From positions 2,620,036-2,684,035 of the forward strand of contig CP060501.1 in NCBI GenBank assembly GCA_024760545.1: a DNA stretch of 64,000 bases, written 5' to 3'. Positions 7,693-20,351 of the stretch are shown here, piece by piece. A model generated the notes under the pieces. The model was not told the origin of the DNA, did not search any database, and saw only the letters and a program-made list of their open reading frames with translations. Origin of the DNA: Nitrospira sp. (GTDB lineage Bacteria; Nitrospirota; Nitrospiria; Nitrospirales; Nitrospiraceae). The position numbers and the translations under genes are program-made. How positions within the stretch are numbered: the stretch's first letter is position 1; each line of letters opens with the position of its first letter.

Positions 7693-9072
7693 TTGTCTGA
7701 CGAAGAACTGTTCAACGCACCCCTCCCGAGCGATCCCATCATTGCCGCACGATTGGAAGCCATTCGACAGCTTGCAGGCGGACTGTCCGAACGGGTGGCG
7801 GTTATGGACCGAGCCTTCAACGTCGTGTACGCGAATGAAGCAGCGTGGATAGCCGGACAAACCAAAGCGACTCATCAGCACCGCGCCAAATGCTATGAAG
7901 CATTTGCACATCGAACCGATCCTTGCGAAGCCTGTCCGGCGACGAAGGTGTTCGAGGCACCGGAGGTGCAGTGCGTCTCCTGTGCGGGAGGAGGCGCCGG
8001 CGCCGCCTGCGGGATGCAGCAGGCGTTTCCTTTGGCCGATCAGCACGGAACGGTCGAGTCGATGCTGGTGCTGTTCACGCCGGTGCCGAAGTCCCTTCAT
8101 CGAGCAACGCCGCAGGAGCCTGCCGCTCCAGCCGAGGACGTTCGTCTAGGAAATTTGCTGGGCCGAAGTCCGGCTATGCGTCAGCTGTTCGATATGACAC
8201 GCCTGGTGTCGGAGAGTTCCGCCACGGTACTCATCCATGGTGAGAGCGGAACGGGCAAGGAACTCCTCGCGAGAACGATCCACGCACTCAGCAGCCGACG
8301 AGATCGGCCGTTCGTGGTCGTCGATTGCGGGTCATTGCCGGAAACACTGCTTGAAAGCGAGCTGTTCGGACATGTGAAAGGAGCCTTCACCGGAGCCGTG
8401 GCGAATAAACGGGGCTTGTTCGAAGAGGCAGAGGGCGGAACGATCTTCCTCGATGAAATTGCCGATACAAGGCCGGTCTTTCAGGCGAAGCTGCTCCGTG
8501 TGCTGCAGGAGGGCGAGATCAAACCGGTCGGTGGGACGAGATCGATCAAAATCCATGCGCGAGTCATCTCGGCATCGAACAAGGATTTGGCCGAATTGGT
8601 GAAGGCTAAGACGTTTCGAGAAGATCTCTACTATCGACTGGCGGTGTTGCCGCTGTATATACCGGCCTTGAGGGAACGGCGTGAAGATATCCCCTTGCTG
8701 GTGCAGTCCTTCGTCACCGCTTCTTGTGCACGACATCATCAAGCGGTTCGATCTGTCGATGAAAAAACGATGCGGGCATTATGCGAGGCCGAATGGCACG
8801 GTAATGTCCGAGAATTGCTGCACTATATCGAGCGCGCCGTCGTGACGACAGCCGGTCCGTGGCTCGTATGCGATGATCTTGTTTCAAGCGGAGCCGTTGC
8901 TGAACACGAGAGCTTGCGGTCAGCGTCGAGAGGGGTTGTGGCCAAGACGGAACGTACCCGGATTGTCGATGCCCTCAAGAAGACCGCGGGGAATCGATTG
9001 AAAGCAGCCAAGTTGCTCAAGATCAGCCGAGCGAGCCTCTACAACAAGCTGCGTGCCTATTCCATCGAGTAG
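7693..9072 (+). CDS. Sigma-54 activator with a cysteine-rich PAS-like sensor
   Basis: The 459-residue protein starts at TTG. Its N-terminal 120 residues form a PAS-like domain with a cysteine group: KCYEAF, then PCEACP, then VQCVSC and AACG. The AAA+ domain has Walker A GESGTGKE, an intact GAFTGA loop and Walker B GTIFLDEI, and a Fis-type helix-turn-helix closes the protein (NRLKAAKLLKISRASLYNKL). It has no receiver, so its own PAS-like domain probably takes the signal. The Cx2C pairs could bind metal, haem or an Fe-S cluster, or sense redox state; which one cannot be told from sequence. It ends 353 bp before amoC and is an obvious candidate regulator of the downstream sigma-54 promoters. Confidence 0.9.
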   Translation: MSDEELFNAPLPSDPIIAARLEAIRQLAGGLSERVAVMDRAFNVVYANEAAWIAGQTKATHQHRAKCYEAFAHRTDPCEACPATKVFEAPEVQCVSCAGGGAGAACGMQQAFPLADQHGTVESMLVLFTPVPKSLHRATPQEPAAPAEDVRLGNLLGRSPAMRQLFDMTRLVSESSATVLIHGESGTGKELLARTIHALSSRRDRPFVVVDCGSLPETLLESELFGHVKGAFTGAVANKRGLFEEAEGGTIFLDEIADTRPVFQAKLLRVLQEGEIKPVGGTRSIKIHARVISASNKDLAELVKAKTFREDLYYRLAVLPLYIPALRERREDIPLLVQSFVTASCARHHQAVRSVDEKTMRALCEAEWHGNVRELLHYIERAVVTTAGPWLVCDDLVSSGAVAEHESLRSASRGVVAKTERTRIVDALKKTAGNRLKAAKLLKISRASLYNKLRAYSIE

Positions 9073-9425: not shown

Positions 9426-10232
9426 ATGGCTTCTGAACGTTCCAGGAAAATCGATGCGTTTTGGTATAACACGATGCCCCTCAAGGCAGGCTGGCTTGGG
9501 ATGCTGGCGATCGGTGTTTTCTGGGTTATGTACCAACGTATCTTCGGATATTCGCACGGGTTAGACTCCATGACCCCCGAGTTTGACTCGGTGTGGATGG
9601 GGCTGTGGCGCTTTAACATCATCGCCAACGCCATCTTCTTCGCTGTGTCCGTCGGATGGATTTGGACGACCCGTGATCGCAACTTGGCCAACTTGGATCC
9701 CAAGCTCGAGCTGAGGAGATATTTTTATTGGCTGAGCTGGCTGGTCTGTTACATCTGGGGCGTGTACTACGCGGGGAGCTATACGCTGGAACAGGACGCG
9801 GCCTGGCACCAGGTGATCATCCGAGACACGAGCTTCACCGCGAGCCATATCGTGGCGTTCTACGGAAGCTTCCCGTTGTACATTACGTGCGGCGTGTCCA
9901 GTTATCTCTACGCGCAGACCCGGTTGCCACTCTATGCGCAGGCGACGTCCTTCCCGTTGGTCGCGGCGGTGGTTGGACCGATGATGATTCTGCCGAACGT
10001 GGGGTTGAACGAGTGGGGCCATGCGTTCTGGTTCGTAGACGAACTGTTCTCGGCGCCCTTGCACTGGGGCTTCGTGACGTTGGGCTGGTGCGGATTGTTC
10101 GGCGCGGCCGGCGGGGTGGCGGCGCAGATCGTCTCGCGCATGTCAAACCTGGCGGACGTGATCTGGAATGGTGCTTCTAAAGATATCCTCGATCCGTTTT
10201 CCAAACAGGTGGGCACCAAGACTACGTACTAA
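9426..10232 (+). CDS. amoC: Ammonia monooxygenase subunit C, stand-alone copy
   Basis: The 268-residue membrane protein has about six hydrophobic segments and family-defining stretches such as [15 protein letters not shown] and [13 protein letters not shown]. AmoC is the third subunit of the copper membrane monooxygenase that oxidises ammonia to hydroxylamine. D124, H128 and H141 keep the D-x3-H-x12-H spacing of the copper site of particulate methane monooxygenase subunit C (Asp156, His160, His173 in Methylococcus). No amoA or amoB is adjacent: upstream is a sigma-54 activator and downstream about 760 bp of non-coding DNA. Extra single amoC copies are known in ammonia oxidisers, including comammox Nitrospira. 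The SD is strong and the copy is full length, so it is probably functional. Confidence 0.95.
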
Positions 10233-13179: not shown

Positions 13180-13232
13180 AGCAGCGTGATGTCGTAGGAG
13201 GTGCCGCCTGGTGCTCCAAGGAAGGAGTTTCG

Positions 13233-13955
13233 ATGTCCATCTCTGAACAAACCCCAGCGCTCCAGTCACCCAAACGCCAATATGTGAACTTCGTCTTCTA
13301 TAAAGTCGATCCAGCTTGGCGCCGTCTGCCGGAGGATGTGCGGACCAAAGGTAAGCATGAGTTCTTGCGGGCCGTGGAGGACTACACCGGAAACGTTCTA
13401 ATAGTGCCCTATTCCACCATCGGCATTCGGGGGGACTGCGACTTCATGCTCTGGCGCATCTGCTATGACCTGGCCCTCTTCCAAGACATGAGCGCCAAGA
13501 TCCTGGCCTCCGGCTTAGGCCAGTACCTCACGATCCCATACTCCTATCTGGCGATGACCAAGCGGTCCGTCTATGTCGACCATCATTCGCACGCGGGACA
13601 GGAAGGAAAACGGCTGACGGTGGTGCCCGGGAAGGGTAAGTACATCTTTGTGTATCCGTTTCTGAAGACACGGGAGTGGTTTCTGCTGACGAAAGCGGCG
13701 CGGCAGGGGATGATGGACGAGCATATTGAAATCGGTCATCGCTTCCCCTCGGTGAAGCTGAATACGAGCTATTCATTCGGGTTGGATGATCAGGAATGGG
13801 TGGTGGCGTTTGAGAGCGACCAGCCGGAAGACTTTCTGGAACTCGTGATGGCGCTGCGCGAAACCGAGGGTTCACGCTATACACTGCGCGATACGCCGAT
13901 TTTCACCTGCGTGCTCAAGAGCCTAAAGGAAATGCTCGACACACTCGGCGGTTGA
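13233..13955 (+). CDS. Chlorite dismutase/HemQ-family haem protein
   Basis: The 240-residue protein matches the Cld/coproheme-decarboxylase family, with KTREWF, MMDEH and SFGLDDQEWVVAFESD as landmarks. H164 in MMDEH is the expected proximal haem ligand. Thirteen residues later, where chlorite dismutases have the catalytic arginine and firmicute HemQ has glutamine, I read N177 (manual alignment). True chlorite splitting is therefore doubtful and a haem-related or unknown reaction is more likely. The ATG at 13233 follows AAGGAG; the open frame upstream overlaps the barrel gene and is rejected. The Rieske oxygenase gene starts 14 bp downstream, so the two are probably co-transcribed. Confidence 0.85.
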   Translation: MSISEQTPALQSPKRQYVNFVFYKVDPAWRRLPEDVRTKGKHEFLRAVEDYTGNVLIVPYSTIGIRGDCDFMLWRICYDLALFQDMSAKILASGLGQYLTIPYSYLAMTKRSVYVDHHSHAGQEGKRLTVVPGKGKYIFVYPFLKTREWFLLTKAARQGMMDEHIEIGHRFPSVKLNTSYSFGLDDQEWVVAFESDQPEDFLELVMALRETEGSRYTLRDTPIFTCVLKSLKEMLDTLGG

Positions 13956-13969
13956 GGCCACAAAACTGA

Positions 13970-15010
13970 ATGCTCGAAGGTTTCTGGTACATCGCCGGGG
14001 AAAGTACTGCGATCAGGGCCGGCCGGCCGTTCGCGTCGGTGCTCTGCAATCAGCCTCTGGTGCTGTTTCGGGATGGGCAGGGTCGCGTGCATGCGTTAGA
14101 AGACCGCTGTCCCCACAAGGGCATGCCGCTCTCGTCGGCCCGGCAGGAAGGGGATTCCTTGCGGTGCCCTTTTCATGGGTGGCGCTTCCTCGCTTCCGGC
14201 AAGTGTATAGAAGTTCCGGCCATCGGCAATGTGGCACATCCATCGTTGACCTCGGCTTGTGTGAAAGCCTTTCCAGTCCAGGAACTGGACGGATGGGTGT
14301 GGGTCTACATCGGCAACGATCGGTGCCCGACCCCTTCGTCTCTCCCACCATCGTTGCCGGTTCCTGATGACGGAAGTCCCATGGTTTCCGTGCGCGAGTC
14401 TGCCGAGGCGAAAGTCCGGTGGGATTTCGCGGTGGACAGTCTCATGGATCCGGCCCACGTCCCGTTCGTGCACCACAACTATTTTCGACGACGCGAGGCA
14501 GCCAGAAGAAAAGAAAAAGTGTTTACACGGCTGCCGCTGGGGTTTCGCACCATATCGCAGAATGTGTTGCTGCCGGACACCTTTATCTTTCGCGCCTTGT
14601 CTCCGAGACTGAGCTCGGCCACGACCACGGTCGATTTTCTCCTGCCGGGTATCCATCTGGAACGATGGGAGATTGGCAAACGGTTTGCGTCAGTCATGTT
14701 GGTTGCCACACCGCTCGCTGATGGACGAAGCCGGTTCGACATCTGCGTCGGGTGGAACTTCTTGCGCGGGCTACCCGTGGGATGGCTGGTCCGCCGGACT
14801 CTACGGACTATTCTTGGCCAGGACAGGGAAGTTCTGGAATTGCAGGAACAGGGGTTTGGCCAGAAGGGAACCATGTTGTTGAATTTGGAATCGGACACAC
14901 TGGCCGTGTGGTACCGGCGGCTGAAGAGATATCGTCTGGATCAATTGGCTGGTGTGCCTAACCCACAGCATCCGATTCCTGAGAAAGTCACGCTCAGCTG
15001 GATCACCTGA
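13970..15010 (+). CDS. Rieske-type ring oxygenase (PaO-like)
   Basis: The 346-residue protein has a Rieske [2Fe-2S] site C47-P-H49 ... C66-P-F-H69 and a mononuclear iron site in DSLMDPAHVPFVHH (D160, H163, H168 or H169). This is the layout of the oxygenase component of Rieske non-haem iron oxygenases; the short C-terminal domain is closest in style to the pheophorbide a oxygenase/vanillate demethylase group. The substrate is unknown. No reductase or ferredoxin gene is adjacent. Its neighbour, the Cld-family protein, suggests a haem or tetrapyrrole context, which is inference. Confidence 0.87.
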   Translation: MLEGFWYIAGESTAIRAGRPFASVLCNQPLVLFRDGQGRVHALEDRCPHKGMPLSSARQEGDSLRCPFHGWRFLASGKCIEVPAIGNVAHPSLTSACVKAFPVQELDGWVWVYIGNDRCPTPSSLPPSLPVPDDGSPMVSVRESAEAKVRWDFAVDSLMDPAHVPFVHHNYFRRREAARRKEKVFTRLPLGFRTISQNVLLPDTFIFRALSPRLSSATTTVDFLLPGIHLERWEIGKRFASVMLVATPLADGRSRFDICVGWNFLRGLPVGWLVRRTLRTILGQDREVLELQEQGFGQKGTMLLNLESDTLAVWYRRLKRYRLDQLAGVPNPQHPIPEKVTLSWIT

Positions 15011-15339
15011 GTCGAATCGTCCAGGACTGATCGCATGAGCACGACCCACCGGAACTGCTTGTGCAGAAGAGCCGGAACTACGGTGGCGCCTGGCCCAGAT
15101 GTTTCCTCCCCCGCGCTCCAATATTGCCCCGCCATGCCACAGTTTCCCGATAGACACTGTCCAATGAAATAGACAGCATAACCTCATGATTTTCATTCGA
15201 TCCCTCGATAGAGCTCCGTCGCTGTCTTATTCTGTAGAAGAGCTCCCCACCTCTGTTGATCGACGAGATAGGCCCCAGACTCTCTCTAACCTCTTGTCTC
15301 TATGTGAAAAGTTCTATTGATCCAAAATCTTGTTCGAGG
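15011..15339 (+). other. Intergenic region before the multicopper-oxidase promoter
   Basis: No gene is supported. Weak inverted repeats (CCACCG near 15047 / CGGTGG near 15078) may contribute to termination of the Rieske gene transcript, but there is no T tract. I see nothing else of note. Confidence 0.4.
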
Positions 15340-15354
15340 AGGCACGGCGATTGC
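15340..15354 (+). promoter_or_regulatory. Sigma-54 promoter for the multicopper oxidase
   Basis: AGGCAC-GGCGA-TTGC matches the sigma-54 consensus at all fixed bases except the first T, with GG and GC 10 bases apart. The expected start is near 15366, giving a leader of about 228 nt before the ATG at 15594. The structured element described separately begins only three bases after this predicted start, which supports the placement. Confidence 0.7.
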
Positions 15355-15365
15355 GCTATGCAGAA

Positions 15366-15593
15366 ATCGCTGGTGAGGGTTTGGGTGATTTTGGACCGGC
15401 CTCCGAATGACCCATTCCTTCGCGAGAAGGAGCCCTTCACCAGCTCTTAACCCTCCGGTGAATCAGGCCGGAAGTCCGTCGGAGGCCGGTTCTCTTTCCA
15501 AAGGACGACGAGAGGATTGTGAATGATTATCGATGAGCAGAAATCAACTAGCCGCCTGATGAGGCGGCTACACCAGGGAGAGGAGGCCGAGAC
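15366..15593 (+). promoter_or_regulatory. Structured leader RNA with competing stems
   Basis: Stem A pairs GCTGGTGAGGG (15369-15379) with CCCTTCACCAGC (15433-15444), 11 bp with one bulge, and encloses a TCCTTC-GCGA-GAAGGA tetraloop hairpin (15416-15431). Stem B pairs CCGGCCTCCGA (15396-15406) with TCGGAGGCCGG (15479-15489), 11 bp perfect, followed by TTCTCTTTCC. A and B interlock, so they exclude each other unless a pseudoknot forms. Stem C (CCTCCG 15452-15457 with CGGAGG 15480-15485) competes for the same 3' strand as B. A last hairpin AGCCGCCT-GATG-AGGCGGCT (15550-15569) sits before the GAGAGGAGG binding site. Confidence 0.6.
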
Positions 15594-18500
15594 ATGAGGT
15601 CCAATCAACTTGAACAAACGCGGAGGCAGAAGAACGCCAGCGTGATGCTGCGATTCCAAAGCCTGGCGTTGGCGAGCAGTTTAGCGTTCGCACCGATAGG
15701 CTTTGCTGCCGAGCAACATCGTCATCACGACAATGCGGGCCAGGCGTCGGCAGACAAGGTCATCTATCGCGAGGGCGGGTCGATCCTGCACGATCGAATG
15801 ATGGATGAGGTCAAGCGCCAGCAAGAGTTCATGGGAGAGAAAGGTGGTTATAGTAATGGGGCCAATAGTCACATGCTCCAGCAGGGCGTTCTACTGGTCG
15901 CAGAAGACCCGTCCAAGGTTGCTGTCAGCAGCGGCCAACGGTGTCCGGCCAACGCGCCTGTCAAAGAGTACCACGTTTCTGCGATCAACGTCGAAATCAC
16001 GTTGAGCCGGTTTCTCGACTACTTCCCGGGATACATGTACGTGTTGACCGAGAATGTTGAGAAGGTACGGGGCGAGGAAAAATCCAACAGTGACGCGCGA
16101 GAGAAAGAAAACGATCCCGGCGCGGTGTCGAACGGATTGCAAGGAGATATCATTCAGCCCTTGGTGATCCGCGCCAATCAAGGCGATTGCCTTAAGCTGA
16201 CCCTCCACAACCAGATCAACGATGAGCCGACCAATCTCGTCATCAACGGGTCGTCCATGGTCGTGACGACCACCGGCAAGCCGGCGACTCCTTCGAACCC
16301 CGATACGACGGTGGCGGCGGGAGGGGAGCGGAGTTTTGAATGGTACATCAAACCGGACACGCAAGAGGGCGCGCGATTCTTCCGGTCACATGCCTCGCGC
16401 GAGCAATTCAATCTGGGCTTGATCGGGATGCTCGTGGTGGAACCACGCGGATCGCGCTATCTGAGCCCATTCGATGGGCAGCCGATGCCGAGCGGTTGGG
16501 AGGCGATGATTGAAGATCCGAACGGAGCGGACTTCCGGGAGTTCGCGATCTTCTACCATGAAGCCGGTGACGAGGCCTTCCGGCTCTTGAACAAGAAAGG
16601 TGAGATGCTGCCGCAGCGCGATCCCCACACCGATTCGTATCGGCCGGGCGCCCGGCTGCTCAATTATCGCAGCGAGCCGCACGGCACGCGCATTGAGCTT
16701 CAGGCGCACATGGGATTCTACGGCGACGAGTCGATGGCGTACGGCTCCTACACGTTCGGTGACCCGGCGACGACGATTCCCAGATCCTACCTTGGCGATC
16801 CTGCCAAGTTCCGGATGGCAGGCGGGTCGGAAATCGTGCATTCGCATCATCTCCACGGCGGGTCCATCCGGTGGGCGCGCCAGCCGGGGAACAGCCAGCT
16901 CGACTTTGCGGTGTCGAAGAACGGCCCGGTGAAGTTCCCTCCGATCAGCGATACTTCAGATCGGTTGGACGTACAGTCCATTGGGCCGACGGAAGTGTAC
17001 GATCAGGTGATCGAGGGTGGATCCGGCGGGCTGCAGGCATTGGCCGGTGAGTTCGTGTTCCATTGCCATATCCCCCAACATTATGTGACGGGCATGTGGG
17101 GATTCTGGCGTGTCTACAATACGCTGCAAGCGCCGGGGTTCCAGACCGACGTCATGAAACCGCTCGTGGAACTTCCTGACCGTGCGGGCAAGATGAAGGG
17201 AGGCATTCCATCGGACAAGCTGGTCGGCACCACAGTGGATTGGTACGGTGGGAAGAAGTACGAGATCACGAAGGATCGGACTGATTGGAAAGCAGATCCG
17301 GTGAAGGTCTCCCTCAAGGACTGGGTCGAGATGATGCTTCCTCCGCAAGGCAAGCCGGGTAAGAAGAACAGCGAAAAGGAGCAGACGCTCGCGTACGATG
17401 CGACCGTGAATGATTGGGCTTGGGATGGCCACAAGGCGCTCACTGAGCTGGAGACCGCGTATGAGTGGGTGAACTACAAATCGGCCACGCCAGGAAAGCG
17501 GCAGGAAATTCTCTTCGATGCGCGATCCGGCAAACTCGCCTGGCCGTGGTTGCGGCCGCATCTGGGCCGTCGTGTCCCCTTCTCGCCAAGCCATAGCGGT
17601 GCCCCGTGGCTGGAACCGATCCATCGCCGCGACGACGGCAGCAACTCGACGGAGCCACCGAGGCCTGGAGAGCAGGGACCGTGGAGTCTATGTCCTGAAG
17701 GAGCGCCGCAAAAATTCTTCAACATCCATGCGATTACGTTGCCGATCACACTGAAGAGGGCGACCGCCAAGACACCGGCGATCGTGGACCCGGACGGCAT
17801 GCTCTATGTGCTGCATGAAGAAGAGCAGGACGTCCGGAAAACTTCCGCCAAGCAGATGCCATTGGTGATCCGCGGGAACGTGCAGGATTGCATCGACGTC
17901 GTCTACACGAGCGAGTTGAAGGACGATCAGCGTCAAGGGTTCTCCAGCAAGACGAACCTGCACCCGCACATGTTCCAGTTCGACACTCAGGCGTCGGATG
18001 GCCCCATCATCGGTTTCTCCTACGAGATGTCGCTGCGACCCTTCACCATCTTGAAGGACGAACACCCCGGCAAAGGTATGCCGGTGCCGATGAACACGAC
18101 GATCGAAGCCGATGCCGCCAAGGGAACCACCACCATTACGGTCAGGGATGCCTCGCGTTATCACGTGAAGACGGAACTCGGCGTGGGCATGGACGAGGTC
18201 GGTCGGTTTGAATCAGCACGAATCAGCAAGATCAGTGGAAACCAGATCACGTTTGAGCGGCCGCTCAAGTATCACCACAAGAAGGGCGAAATCGTCTCGG
18301 TGGAGTGGATCAGAGAACGGTGGTACGTGGACGCCGATTTCGGCACCACGTTCTGGCACGACCATGTGTTCGGATTGGATGGCTGGGGCCACGGCTTTTA
18401 CTCAACGTTTATTGCCGAGCCGCCGCGATCGACCTATCATGACCCGGTGACCGGTAAGGAAGTCCGGAGCGGACCGGTGGCCGACATTCACACGACCGAA

Positions 18501-20351
18501 CCGGTGTCCGCACATATCAAGGGTTCTTTCCGTGAGATCGTCACGCAGGTCATGGATTCCAACCCCAGAACGTCGGAATTGATTACCACTGACAATCCGC
18601 AGGCGAAGGTCGGCGCGATTTCTGTCGACGGGACCCCTTCCGCAGTGTACCCCGCCCGGCTCAATCTGTTGCCGATGAAATTCTTGAACGGCGGCGAAGC
18701 GACGACCGGCGGCGGCTACAACATGCGGGTTGAGCCGTTGTCTGTGCGGCTCGCCAACAACCCCGATCCATCGCAGTTGTTCCGCAGTGCGATTCACGGA
18801 GATCCCGAGACCCCGATGTTGCGGGCGTATCTGGGCGATCCGGTGGTCGTCCGGTTGATCGAAGGATCGGCCAACGAAGTGCATTCCTGGCACATCAGCG
18901 GCCATTGGTTCCCGATGGAGCGGTACAGCAAGGACTCGATCCCGCGCAGCACGTTGCACGTCGTGATCGGAGAGCGGTATGACGCAGCCATCCCGGCCGC
19001 AGGGGGACCGCAGCAGATGGCCGGAGACTATCTCTACTACAGCGGGCGCGCGTCTCACTTCGCGGAAGGCAGCTGGGGGATTTTCAGAGTGTTCGATAAG
19101 GCAGATGCGACACTGAAGCCGCTGCCGGGTCGGGCGGAGATTCCTCAATCGGCGAAGTCCGTCTGTCCGGCCGATGCGCCGGTCAAGACCTTCAATGTCG
19201 CCGCCATCGATAAGGCGATCCGTTACAACAAAGGAACGCCCGGTGTGATGGAAGTGGACTTGGAGCGGAAGATGGTGCTGGGCAACGAAACCGGAAAGAT
19301 GTACGTGCTCGAAGGTGAAAAGACGAAAGTTGCCTCGGGCAGCCTCGAACCGAGTCCGCTGACCCTGCATGTGAATGTCGGCGATTGCATCAAGGTCAAT
19401 CTGAAGAACGAAATGGCCAAAGATCGGGCCGGATTCCACGTCGATAATCTGGCCTATGATCCCAAGGAATCGATGGGGATCAACGCGGGCAACAACCCCG
19501 GCGACCAGACCGTCGCGCCGGGACAAAGCCGGACCTACACGTACTATGCCCATCCTGAATTCGGCGAAAACGCGGCCTTGATTCAGGACTGGGGAAACGT
19601 GATTGAAAATCCGCGAAACGGGCTCTTTGGCGCGATCATCATCGGTCCGAAGGGATCGCGTTATCGCGATCCGGCCAGCGGCGAAGATCTGAGCGACAAG
19701 AGCTCCTGGAAAGCGGATGTGATCGTCGATCGCACTCTGTCGGGAAATGAACATCGGCAGAACTATCGGTCGTTCGCGCTGCTGTTCCAGGATGAGGACA
19801 ATATCATCGGCACCAGCTTCATGCCGTACATCCAAAAAGTCGCGGGTGTGACGGCGGTGAACTATCGGTCCGAGCCGACGGATTACCGCACGGAGAAAGG
19901 CTGTGCATACAGCGAAATCTTCGTGTGCGTGAAGGCTGGGGAGCAGCCCGTGACGCCGACCATCGCCGCCCATGTCGGCGATCCGGTCGTGATTCATGTG
20001 CTAGGTGCGTTCAGCGAACAGGTCCAGCTGTTCAGCGTGTCCGGTCATGAATGGAAACATGAGCCCTACCTGACCGGGGCGGACCTTGTCAGCACCATGG
20101 AATTCGGCGGGTCCGAGGTCATTAATGCCTGGTTGCACGGCGGGGCCGGTGGGCCGAACGGTATCCCCGGGGACTATCTCTGGCTCAACCAGAGGCCCGG
20201 GTACCTTGATGCCGGTCACTGGGGAATGTTGAAGGTTTTGGATCGTGACAGCCGCGCGATTCTGCCGTTGAGCGGTCGGGGTCCGGCCACCCAACAGGCG
20301 GAAGAGCCATCGCCGGTGCAATCCCTACCGGTGTCCACGCAGTTCAAGTAG
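15594..20351 (+). CDS. Giant multidomain multicopper oxidase (MnxG/MofA-like size)
   Basis: The 1585-residue protein has an export signal (hydrophobic core near residues 22-38, cleavage near AFAPIGFAA) and serial cupredoxin units. Copper motifs recur: HSHHLHGG (from H416), HCHIPQH...M (H490-C491-H492, H496, M501), HPH (H790), HDH (H922) and HSWHISGH (H1097). The C-terminal third (about 1190-1550) keeps the cupredoxin pattern but has lost most ligands. Three- and four-domain laccases are far shorter; the length is closer to MofA or MnxG manganese oxidases, but no motif seen here proves a substrate. It probably acts in the periplasm or outside the cell. It follows its own sigma-54 promoter and structured leader and is closed by a terminator. 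Confidence 0.85.
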   Translation: MRSNQLEQTRRQKNASVMLRFQSLALASSLAFAPIGFAAEQHRHHDNAGQASADKVIYREGGSILHDRMMDEVKRQQEFMGEKGGYSNGANSHMLQQGVLLVAEDPSKVAVSSGQRCPANAPVKEYHVSAINVEITLSRFLDYFPGYMYVLTENVEKVRGEEKSNSDAREKENDPGAVSNGLQGDIIQPLVIRANQGDCLKLTLHNQINDEPTNLVINGSSMVVTTTGKPATPSNPDTTVAAGGERSFEWYIKPDTQEGARFFRSHASREQFNLGLIGMLVVEPRGSRYLSPFDGQPMPSGWEAMIEDPNGADFREFAIFYHEAGDEAFRLLNKKGEMLPQRDPHTDSYRPGARLLNYRSEPHGTRIELQAHMGFYGDESMAYGSYTFGDPATTIPRSYLGDPAKFRMAGGSEIVHSHHLHGGSIRWARQPGNSQLDFAVSKNGPVKFPPISDTSDRLDVQSIGPTEVYDQVIEGGSGGLQALAGEFVFHCHIPQHYVTGMWGFWRVYNTLQAPGFQTDVMKPLVELPDRAGKMKGGIPSDKLVGTTVDWYGGKKYEITKDRTDWKADPVKVSLKDWVEMMLPPQGKPGKKNSEKEQTLAYDATVNDWAWDGHKALTELETAYEWVNYKSATPGKRQEILFDARSGKLAWPWLRPHLGRRVPFSPSHSGAPWLEPIHRRDDGSNSTEPPRPGEQGPWSLCPEGAPQKFFNIHAITLPITLKRATAKTPAIVDPDGMLYVLHEEEQDVRKTSAKQMPLVIRGNVQDCIDVVYTSELKDDQRQGFSSKTNLHPHMFQFDTQASDGPIIGFSYEMSLRPFTILKDEHPGKGMPVPMNTTIEADAAKGTTTITVRDASRYHVKTELGVGMDEVGRFESARISKISGNQITFERPLKYHHKKGEIVSVEWIRERWYVDADFGTTFWHDHVFGLDGWGHGFYSTFIAEPPRSTYHDPVTGKEVRSGPVADIHTTEPVSAHIKGSFREIVTQVMDSNPRTSELITTDNPQAKVGAISVDGTPSAVYPARLNLLPMKFLNGGEATTGGGYNMRVEPLSVRLANNPDPSQLFRSAIHGDPETPMLRAYLGDPVVVRLIEGSANEVHSWHISGHWFPMERYSKDSIPRSTLHVVIGERYDAAIPAAGGPQQMAGDYLYYSGRASHFAEGSWGIFRVFDKADATLKPLPGRAEIPQSAKSVCPADAPVKTFNVAAIDKAIRYNKGTPGVMEVDLERKMVLGNETGKMYVLEGEKTKVASGSLEPSPLTLHVNVGDCIKVNLKNEMAKDRAGFHVDNLAYDPKESMGINAGNNPGDQTVAPGQSRTYTYYAHPEFGENAALIQDWGNVIENPRNGLFGAIIIGPKGSRYRDPASGEDLSDKSSWKADVIVDRTLSGNEHRQNYRSFALLFQDEDNIIGTSFMPYIQKVAGVTAVNYRSEPTDYRTEKGCAYSEIFVCVKAGEQPVTPTIAAHVGDPVVIHVLGAFSEQVQLFSVSGHEWKHEPYLTGADLVSTMEFGGSEVINAWLHGGAGGPNGIPGDYLWLNQRPGYLDAGHWGMLKVLDRDSRAILPLSGRGPATQQAEEPSPVQSLPVSTQFK

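Follow-up and report, generated by a model that had tools for sequence, protein, structure and literature searches.

Leader RNAs that hide a Shine-Dalgarno (SD) sequence are of an already known kind, and in anti-SD/anti-anti-SD leaders the SD and a competitor that mimics it vie for the same strand. The sigma-54 promoters served by NtrC-type activators (EBPs), those of the NifA and NtrC class, combine a -24/-12 promoter and an upstream palindrome with a GAFTGA activator that carries a Fis HTH. SD-sequestering riboswitches, in which a loop or pseudoknot pairs with the SD, are represented by the preQ1, SAM-II, SAM-V and SAM/SAH classes (PMC11625349, PMC6061858).

The locus described here lies in a 64,000-nt stretch of DNA (the window) from the 4.8-Mb genome of a comammox Nitrospira, and it resembles each of these systems in part. 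As in the preQ1, SAM-II, SAM-V and SAM/SAH riboswitches, the SD can pair with structured upstream RNA, which suggests control at the level of translation; whereas those riboswitches are compact pseudoknots with known ligands, the Nitrospira leader is a three-way junction, its loop reaches an SD ~180 nt downstream, and SD-like decoys lie between the two. As in anti-SD/anti-anti-SD leaders, one strand would choose between the SD and an SD mimic, but here that strand is the exposed loop of a hairpin, belongs to a covarying domain and occurs with one gene class only. The -24/-12 promoter, upstream palindrome, GAFTGA activator and Fis HTH are those of the NtrC/NifA class, from which the Nitrospira module differs in its palindrome (TGTCYA-N6-TRGACA), its PAS-Cys sensor and an RNA element at +1 of the target. 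A literature search found no paper on such a leader, and what is new is that a three-way junction with an anti-SD loop of long reach is combined with decoys that mimic the SD and with an EBP/sigma-54 promoter of its own.

A covarying three-way-junction leader of a giant oxidase gene

The gene behind the leader had been taken for a giant multicopper oxidase in an earlier reading made from the letters of the window (the sequence-only reading), and this assignment was confirmed. The gene (15594-20351, plus strand) encodes 1585 aa with Pfam Cu-oxidase domains, and the protein is homologous across several stretches to the Mn-oxidising multicopper oxidase MnxG (PDB 9bxa; E 4.9e-101). Unlike MnxG, however, it gave a partial match to the NCBIfam MnxG model, with a score of 122.7 against a cutoff of 3100; naming therefore stops at 'MnxG-like', and Mn oxidation is putative.

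A structured leader just after the transcription start had likewise been proposed and was recovered; covariation shows that its first 76 nt (15369-15444) fold as a three-way junction of the stems P1, P2 and P3. P1, the stem A of the sequence-only reading, joins 15369-15379 with 15434-15444 through 11 bp including one G-U, and the hairpin with a GCGA tetraloop seen in that reading is P3 (15415-15432), which pairs 15415-15421 with 15426-15432; beyond the genus, this tetraloop is not conserved. The loop of P2, ACCGGCCU with the flanking CC (15395-15404), is near-invariant and, by its pairing statistics, an anti-SD. These elements, and the decoys, accessory hairpin and SD treated below, all lie on the plus strand. 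The 81-nt core folded at -41.6 kcal/mol (z = -5.0), no shuffle being equally good, and the full 235-nt leader gave z = -2.8. RNAalifold, run unguided on the homologs, returned P1, P2 and P3, and the most diverged copies, folded singly, adopted the same shape.

Compensatory changes in the homologous upstream regions, which the sequence-only reading had named as the test of its stems, were found in abundance. Among 88 aligned copies, 22 of the 29 pairs showed double compensatory changes (0 of 500 shuffles), with 143 double-change cells against 29.7 +/- 4.2 expected from shuffles, and every covariation measure collapsed in sliding-partner controls. Because the 88-copy alignment was fitted to the covariance model, the unfitted alignment counts too, and it gave 8 pairs with double changes and 21 cells vs 5.4. 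For P1, double changes were found in 9 of 11 pairs, with 99.8% of cells paired in 74 distinct sequences; along the oxidase tree its pairs changed state ~49 times with nearly every cell still paired, which argues for many events and not one change inherited widely. Mere sequence conservation without structure was ruled out by the covariation together with the sliding controls.

Covariance model R1, built from 33 sequences, matched 151 of the 175 Nitrospiraceae genomes, mostly with one copy each. When it was run on 396 genomes of the phylum, matches were confined to two families of the order Nitrospirales, 12 genomes of the sister family being added, and no element was found outside that order; the lack of matches in the remaining genomes thus provides a useful specificity control. 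The element was also absent upstream of the fetched Nitrospina-type oxidases. A known RNA family was ruled out, since a search of Rfam 15 yielded no family at gathering score, nor any match even when E values up to 5 were admitted. Each of the 88 copies examined lies ahead of a giant oxidase gene, at a constant place and on the same strand as befits a cis-regulatory leader, and the distance from core to oxidase frame start ranges from 75 to 697 nt (median ~152). Paralog leaders of a second sequence type (type 2; covariance model R2) take the same three-way shape. In the type-2 leaders L162-L167, the stems are unlike those of type 1 while the junction is the same and the loop is AUUGGCCU; some of them carry a GGAA-N8-TTGC-like site and an AGGCCGG-bearing hairpin upstream of the core.

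The P2 loop, the oxidase Shine-Dalgarno sequence and its mimics

Judged from comparative pairing, the main conserved partner of the P2 loop is the oxidase's own SD (15582-15589), which the sequence-only reading had missed. In the window, CGGCCUCC (15397-15404) and the extended SD GGAGGCCG are complementary over 8 perfect pairs. The loop with its closing pairs reads GGACCGGCCTCC / GGACCGGCCUCC in 84 of 88 copies, the SD reads GGAGGC(C/U) in 85 of 88 leaders, and the two are conserved together beyond the generic GGAGG. As GGAGG and CCUCC are complementary anyway, only SD positions 6-9 are informative. Of 80 distinct leaders, 77 can form a loop-SD helix of at least 7 bp, but of the 18 leaderless oxidase paralogs only 6 can, and SDs of leaderless paralogs have drifted, for example to GGAGGGUGA, GGAGGUUGA or GGAGGAGGA; a matching SD is still present in the leaderless paralogs L046, L050 and L183, and is missing from the leaders L145, L147 and L149. 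Against a background of 42 window genes, the median loop-SD energy of the leaders (-17.3 kcal/mol) was reached by the oxidase itself and by none of the other 41, the best other GGAGG gene attaining -13.2 kcal/mol. Both sides are altered in type-2 leaders (loop AUUGGCCUCC with SD GGAGGCUAA), whereas related paralogs have loop ACCGGCCUCC with SD GGAGGCUGG, and when SDs were shuffled among leaders the observed pairing was matched in 1 of 2000; this covariation is the weakest of the three controls, and few evolutionary events may stand behind it. The predicted helix is long-range, bridging the 75-697 nt between core and start codon, and the 8-nt loop must pair almost fully.

Two further features adjoin the SD. 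A motif resembling UCAAC(C) and, after it, a hairpin (window 15535-15570) recur with differing sequence in many leaders; in single-sequence folds the hairpin occupies 15549-15570, just upstream of the SD, and many leaders have this accessory part while others lack it. A 24-codon open frame, MIIDEQKSTSRLMRRLHQGEEAET (15524-15596), contains the SD, and its stop overlaps the oxidase start (ATGA); the closest relatives (L004, L006 and L057) preserve its frame, more distant ones do not, and its translational coupling with the oxidase is possible.

Between core and gene, two sequences imitate the SD: R1, AGGCCGG (15465-15471), and R2, TCGGAGGCCGGT (15479-15490). AGGCCGG recurs in 55 of 85 distinct spacers against 1.4 in shuffles, a count that takes in the copy inside R2, and GGAGGCCGG in 44 of 85 against 0.06. 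R2 is the 3' strand of the stem B of the sequence-only reading, which stands as a complementarity, now of 12 bp (15395-15406 with 15479-15490), its left strand being the P2 hairpin loop. Since the pairing with R2 runs on into the 3' strand of P2, no full R2 helix can form while P2 stands. Nested folding at 15492 gave -55.0 for the stem-B form vs -53.4 for the three-way-junction form, within ~2 kcal/mol, and these near-equal energies once R2 has been transcribed make the two forms competitors on paper. About half of the homologous spacers lack the right strand of stem B or have it in altered form, and the SD match persists in that part of the family where decoys are missing; R2, not being universal, is thus more plausibly a part for tuning than an essential platform.

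The sigma-54 promoter, its palindrome and a candidate activator

The sigma-54 match that the sequence-only reading placed before the leader held at its exact position. The -24/-12 promoter AGGCACGGCGATTGCG (15340-15355, plus strand), read in the window as aGGCACGgcgaTTGCg with GG at 15341-15342 and GC at 15353-15354, predicts a start at ~15366, and rpoN is present in the genome. The GG-N10-GC arrangement in its TGGCAC/TTGC context is conserved, with the consensus GGCA(C/T)-N5-TTGC in 83 of 88 homologous leaders; in these, the distance from the -12 GC to the RNA core is always 13-15 nt, and the core starts 1-3 nt past the predicted start in every copy. In the oxidase orthologs of the family, the promoter lies 216-281 nt ahead of the gene with the element directly after it.

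Farther upstream lies the putative enhancer palindrome TGTCCAATGAAATAGACA (TGTCYA-N6-TRGACA; 15158-15175), another feature that the sequence-only reading had overlooked. It scores 10-12 of 12 in all 83 sigma-54 leaders and is absent (score 7-8) in exactly the five of 88 leaders that are without a sigma-54 site. Its typical place is ~-212 from the core, mostly -206 to -215 and nearly always -201 to -227, with five copies at ~-140. The whole genome holds only five such sites; the other four all lack a convincing sigma-54 site followed by a gene, two of them adjoin ArsR-type genes, and hence no enhancer regulon was found. A second motif, the direct repeats ATTGCCCC / TGCCCCAA (window ~15122-15142), is found upstream of the palindrome in many leaders; in homologs the repeats lie around positions -247 and -235 relative to the core.

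The likely cognate activator, assigned from synteny, is a sigma-54 EBP (7693-9072, plus strand; the TTG start codon is a mechanical assignment), in which Pfam recognizes an AAA+ GAFTGA domain and a Fis-type HTH behind a PAS-like N-terminus; this protein would bind the palindrome. An EBP gene of the same family lies directly upstream of the leader in 20 of the 41 loci seen, ending about 240-500 nt before the core, and these locus-adjacent EBPs, sister family included, share 45-81% identity with the window activator over the full length. The activator genes of the window and of its closest kin lie several kb upstream of the leader with other genes intervening, which in the window are amoC (9426-10232; AmoC by Pfam) and 2OG-oxygenase-like, chlorite-dismutase-like and Rieske genes. 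The first of the latter encodes a HalD-like 2-oxoglutarate halogenase/oxygenase homolog (PF23169; 10993-11853, between amoC and the oxidase), and the chlorite-dismutase-like and Rieske oxygenase genes occupy 13227-15010, between the activator and its presumed target. The N-terminal domain of the activator contains a YAN motif and three invariant Cys, as PCxxC plus one C; a PAS_4 match in 9 of 10 family members and a structure search with PAS folds on top (E 2.6e-3) are suggestive of a PAS-like domain. At locus L144 (G409), a single activator gene is followed by two giant oxidase genes in tandem, both of which have a sigma-54 site and a leader of their own.

Proposed sequestration of the Shine-Dalgarno sequence and competing explanations

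Leader and promoter together have the look of a device that controls a manganese-oxidase-like enzyme at two levels, and on these comparative data the best explanation, and probably the right one, is a translational SD-sequestration leader inside a dedicated EBP/sigma-54 module. As motif, position and synteny suggest, the PAS-EBP would bind the palindrome near -212 and drive the -24/-12 promoter, so that the transcript would begin 1-3 nt before the RNA core. The initial 76 nt then form the P1/P2/P3 junction shown by covariation, and the P2 loop ACCGGCCUCC would pair long-range with the extended SD GGAGGCC(G) and block ribosome binding. In most leaders, the decoys R1 and R2, between core and start codon, could occupy this loop instead; a complete R2 helix would unzip the P2 hairpin and free the SD, and translation would proceed. 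The balance would be set by a signal acting on the junction, be it a metabolite, a metal, a protein or ribosome availability. The switching leader of the sequence-only reading is thus retained in its mutually exclusive pairings and given up in its terminator-like form; the evidence points to translation instead, since the competing strand is an anti-SD and stem B has, as its 3' half, a mimic of the gene's SD.

The strongest rival, although we think it rather unlikely, is a true metabolite or metal riboswitch with the junction as aptamer and the loop-SD/decoy pairings as expression platform. The compact junction, the strongly conserved P1 and loop, the mutually exclusive platform and the restriction to one gene class would suit it, but most of the invariant positions are in the loop that pairs with the SD and not in the junction, which leaves no evident ligand pocket, and such a restriction is no pointer to a metabolite; the name 'riboswitch' would need a ligand to back it, and copper, which the sequence-only reading put forward as a guess, is as conjectural as any other ligand. 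Equally tentative, and a shade more speculative, is the wider proposal of a new riboswitch class (three-way-junction aptamer, long-range loop-SD platform, SD-mimicking decoys) that senses a metal or nitrogen-cycle signal and, with the cysteine-PAS sigma-54 activator, would put the Mn/Cu oxidase under two-signal AND-control across Nitrospirales. Doubtful as well is a protein- or ribosome-controlled leader, whose loop would be the operator of an RNA-binding protein or a mimic of the 16S anti-SD, serving autoregulation and not ligand sensing. Only 22% of leaders pair SD position 9 with the loop, although the loop base opposite is nearly invariant, an invariance exceeding the need of SD pairing, but full-length R2 decoys would also explain it, and there is no candidate protein.

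That the leader is a 5' stability element only, its tight 5'-end structure protecting the 4.8-kb mRNA, appears improbable: the position of the core right behind the predicted start in all sigma-54 copies would fit, but the loop invariance and the loop-SD match are left unexplained, and paralog leaders without this promoter keep the loop and P1. Very improbable is a trans-acting small RNA cut from the leader to block other GGAGGCC ribosome-binding sites, despite the exposed anti-SD in its loop and the leaderless oxidase paralogs that keep a matching SD. A free-standing or trans small RNA was suspected as many copies seemed far from the closest oxidase orthologs, but every copy examined lies upstream of an oxidase; the 41 distant loci fetched had one every time, mostly of other clades (~50-57% identical), and among 30 loci fetched from the 33 genomic GGAGGCCG-ATG sites only a handful stood at convincing gene starts, so the free-RNA reading was rejected. 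No better placed is a transcription attenuator, to which a 12-bp stem B mutually exclusive with P2 would be suited: stem B is unlikely to be a terminator and was rejected as one, since the T-rich stretch reported after it proved to be the tail TTCTCTTTCC with no U-tract worth the name, the scan for a GC-rich stem followed by a U-run gave a trivial 5-bp match of weak score, and many leaders have no decoys and yet keep the SD match.

SD sequestration under a dedicated sigma-54 promoter therefore remains our preferred reading. As far as Rfam and literature searches show, the leader represents an undescribed structured RNA family, found in 151 of the 175 Nitrospiraceae genomes searched and tied to a giant MnxG-like oxidase. 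A whole testable circuit is in hand, comprising activator, enhancer site, promoter, RNA and ribosome-binding site, and the signal that works the switch would reveal the purpose of the oxidase.
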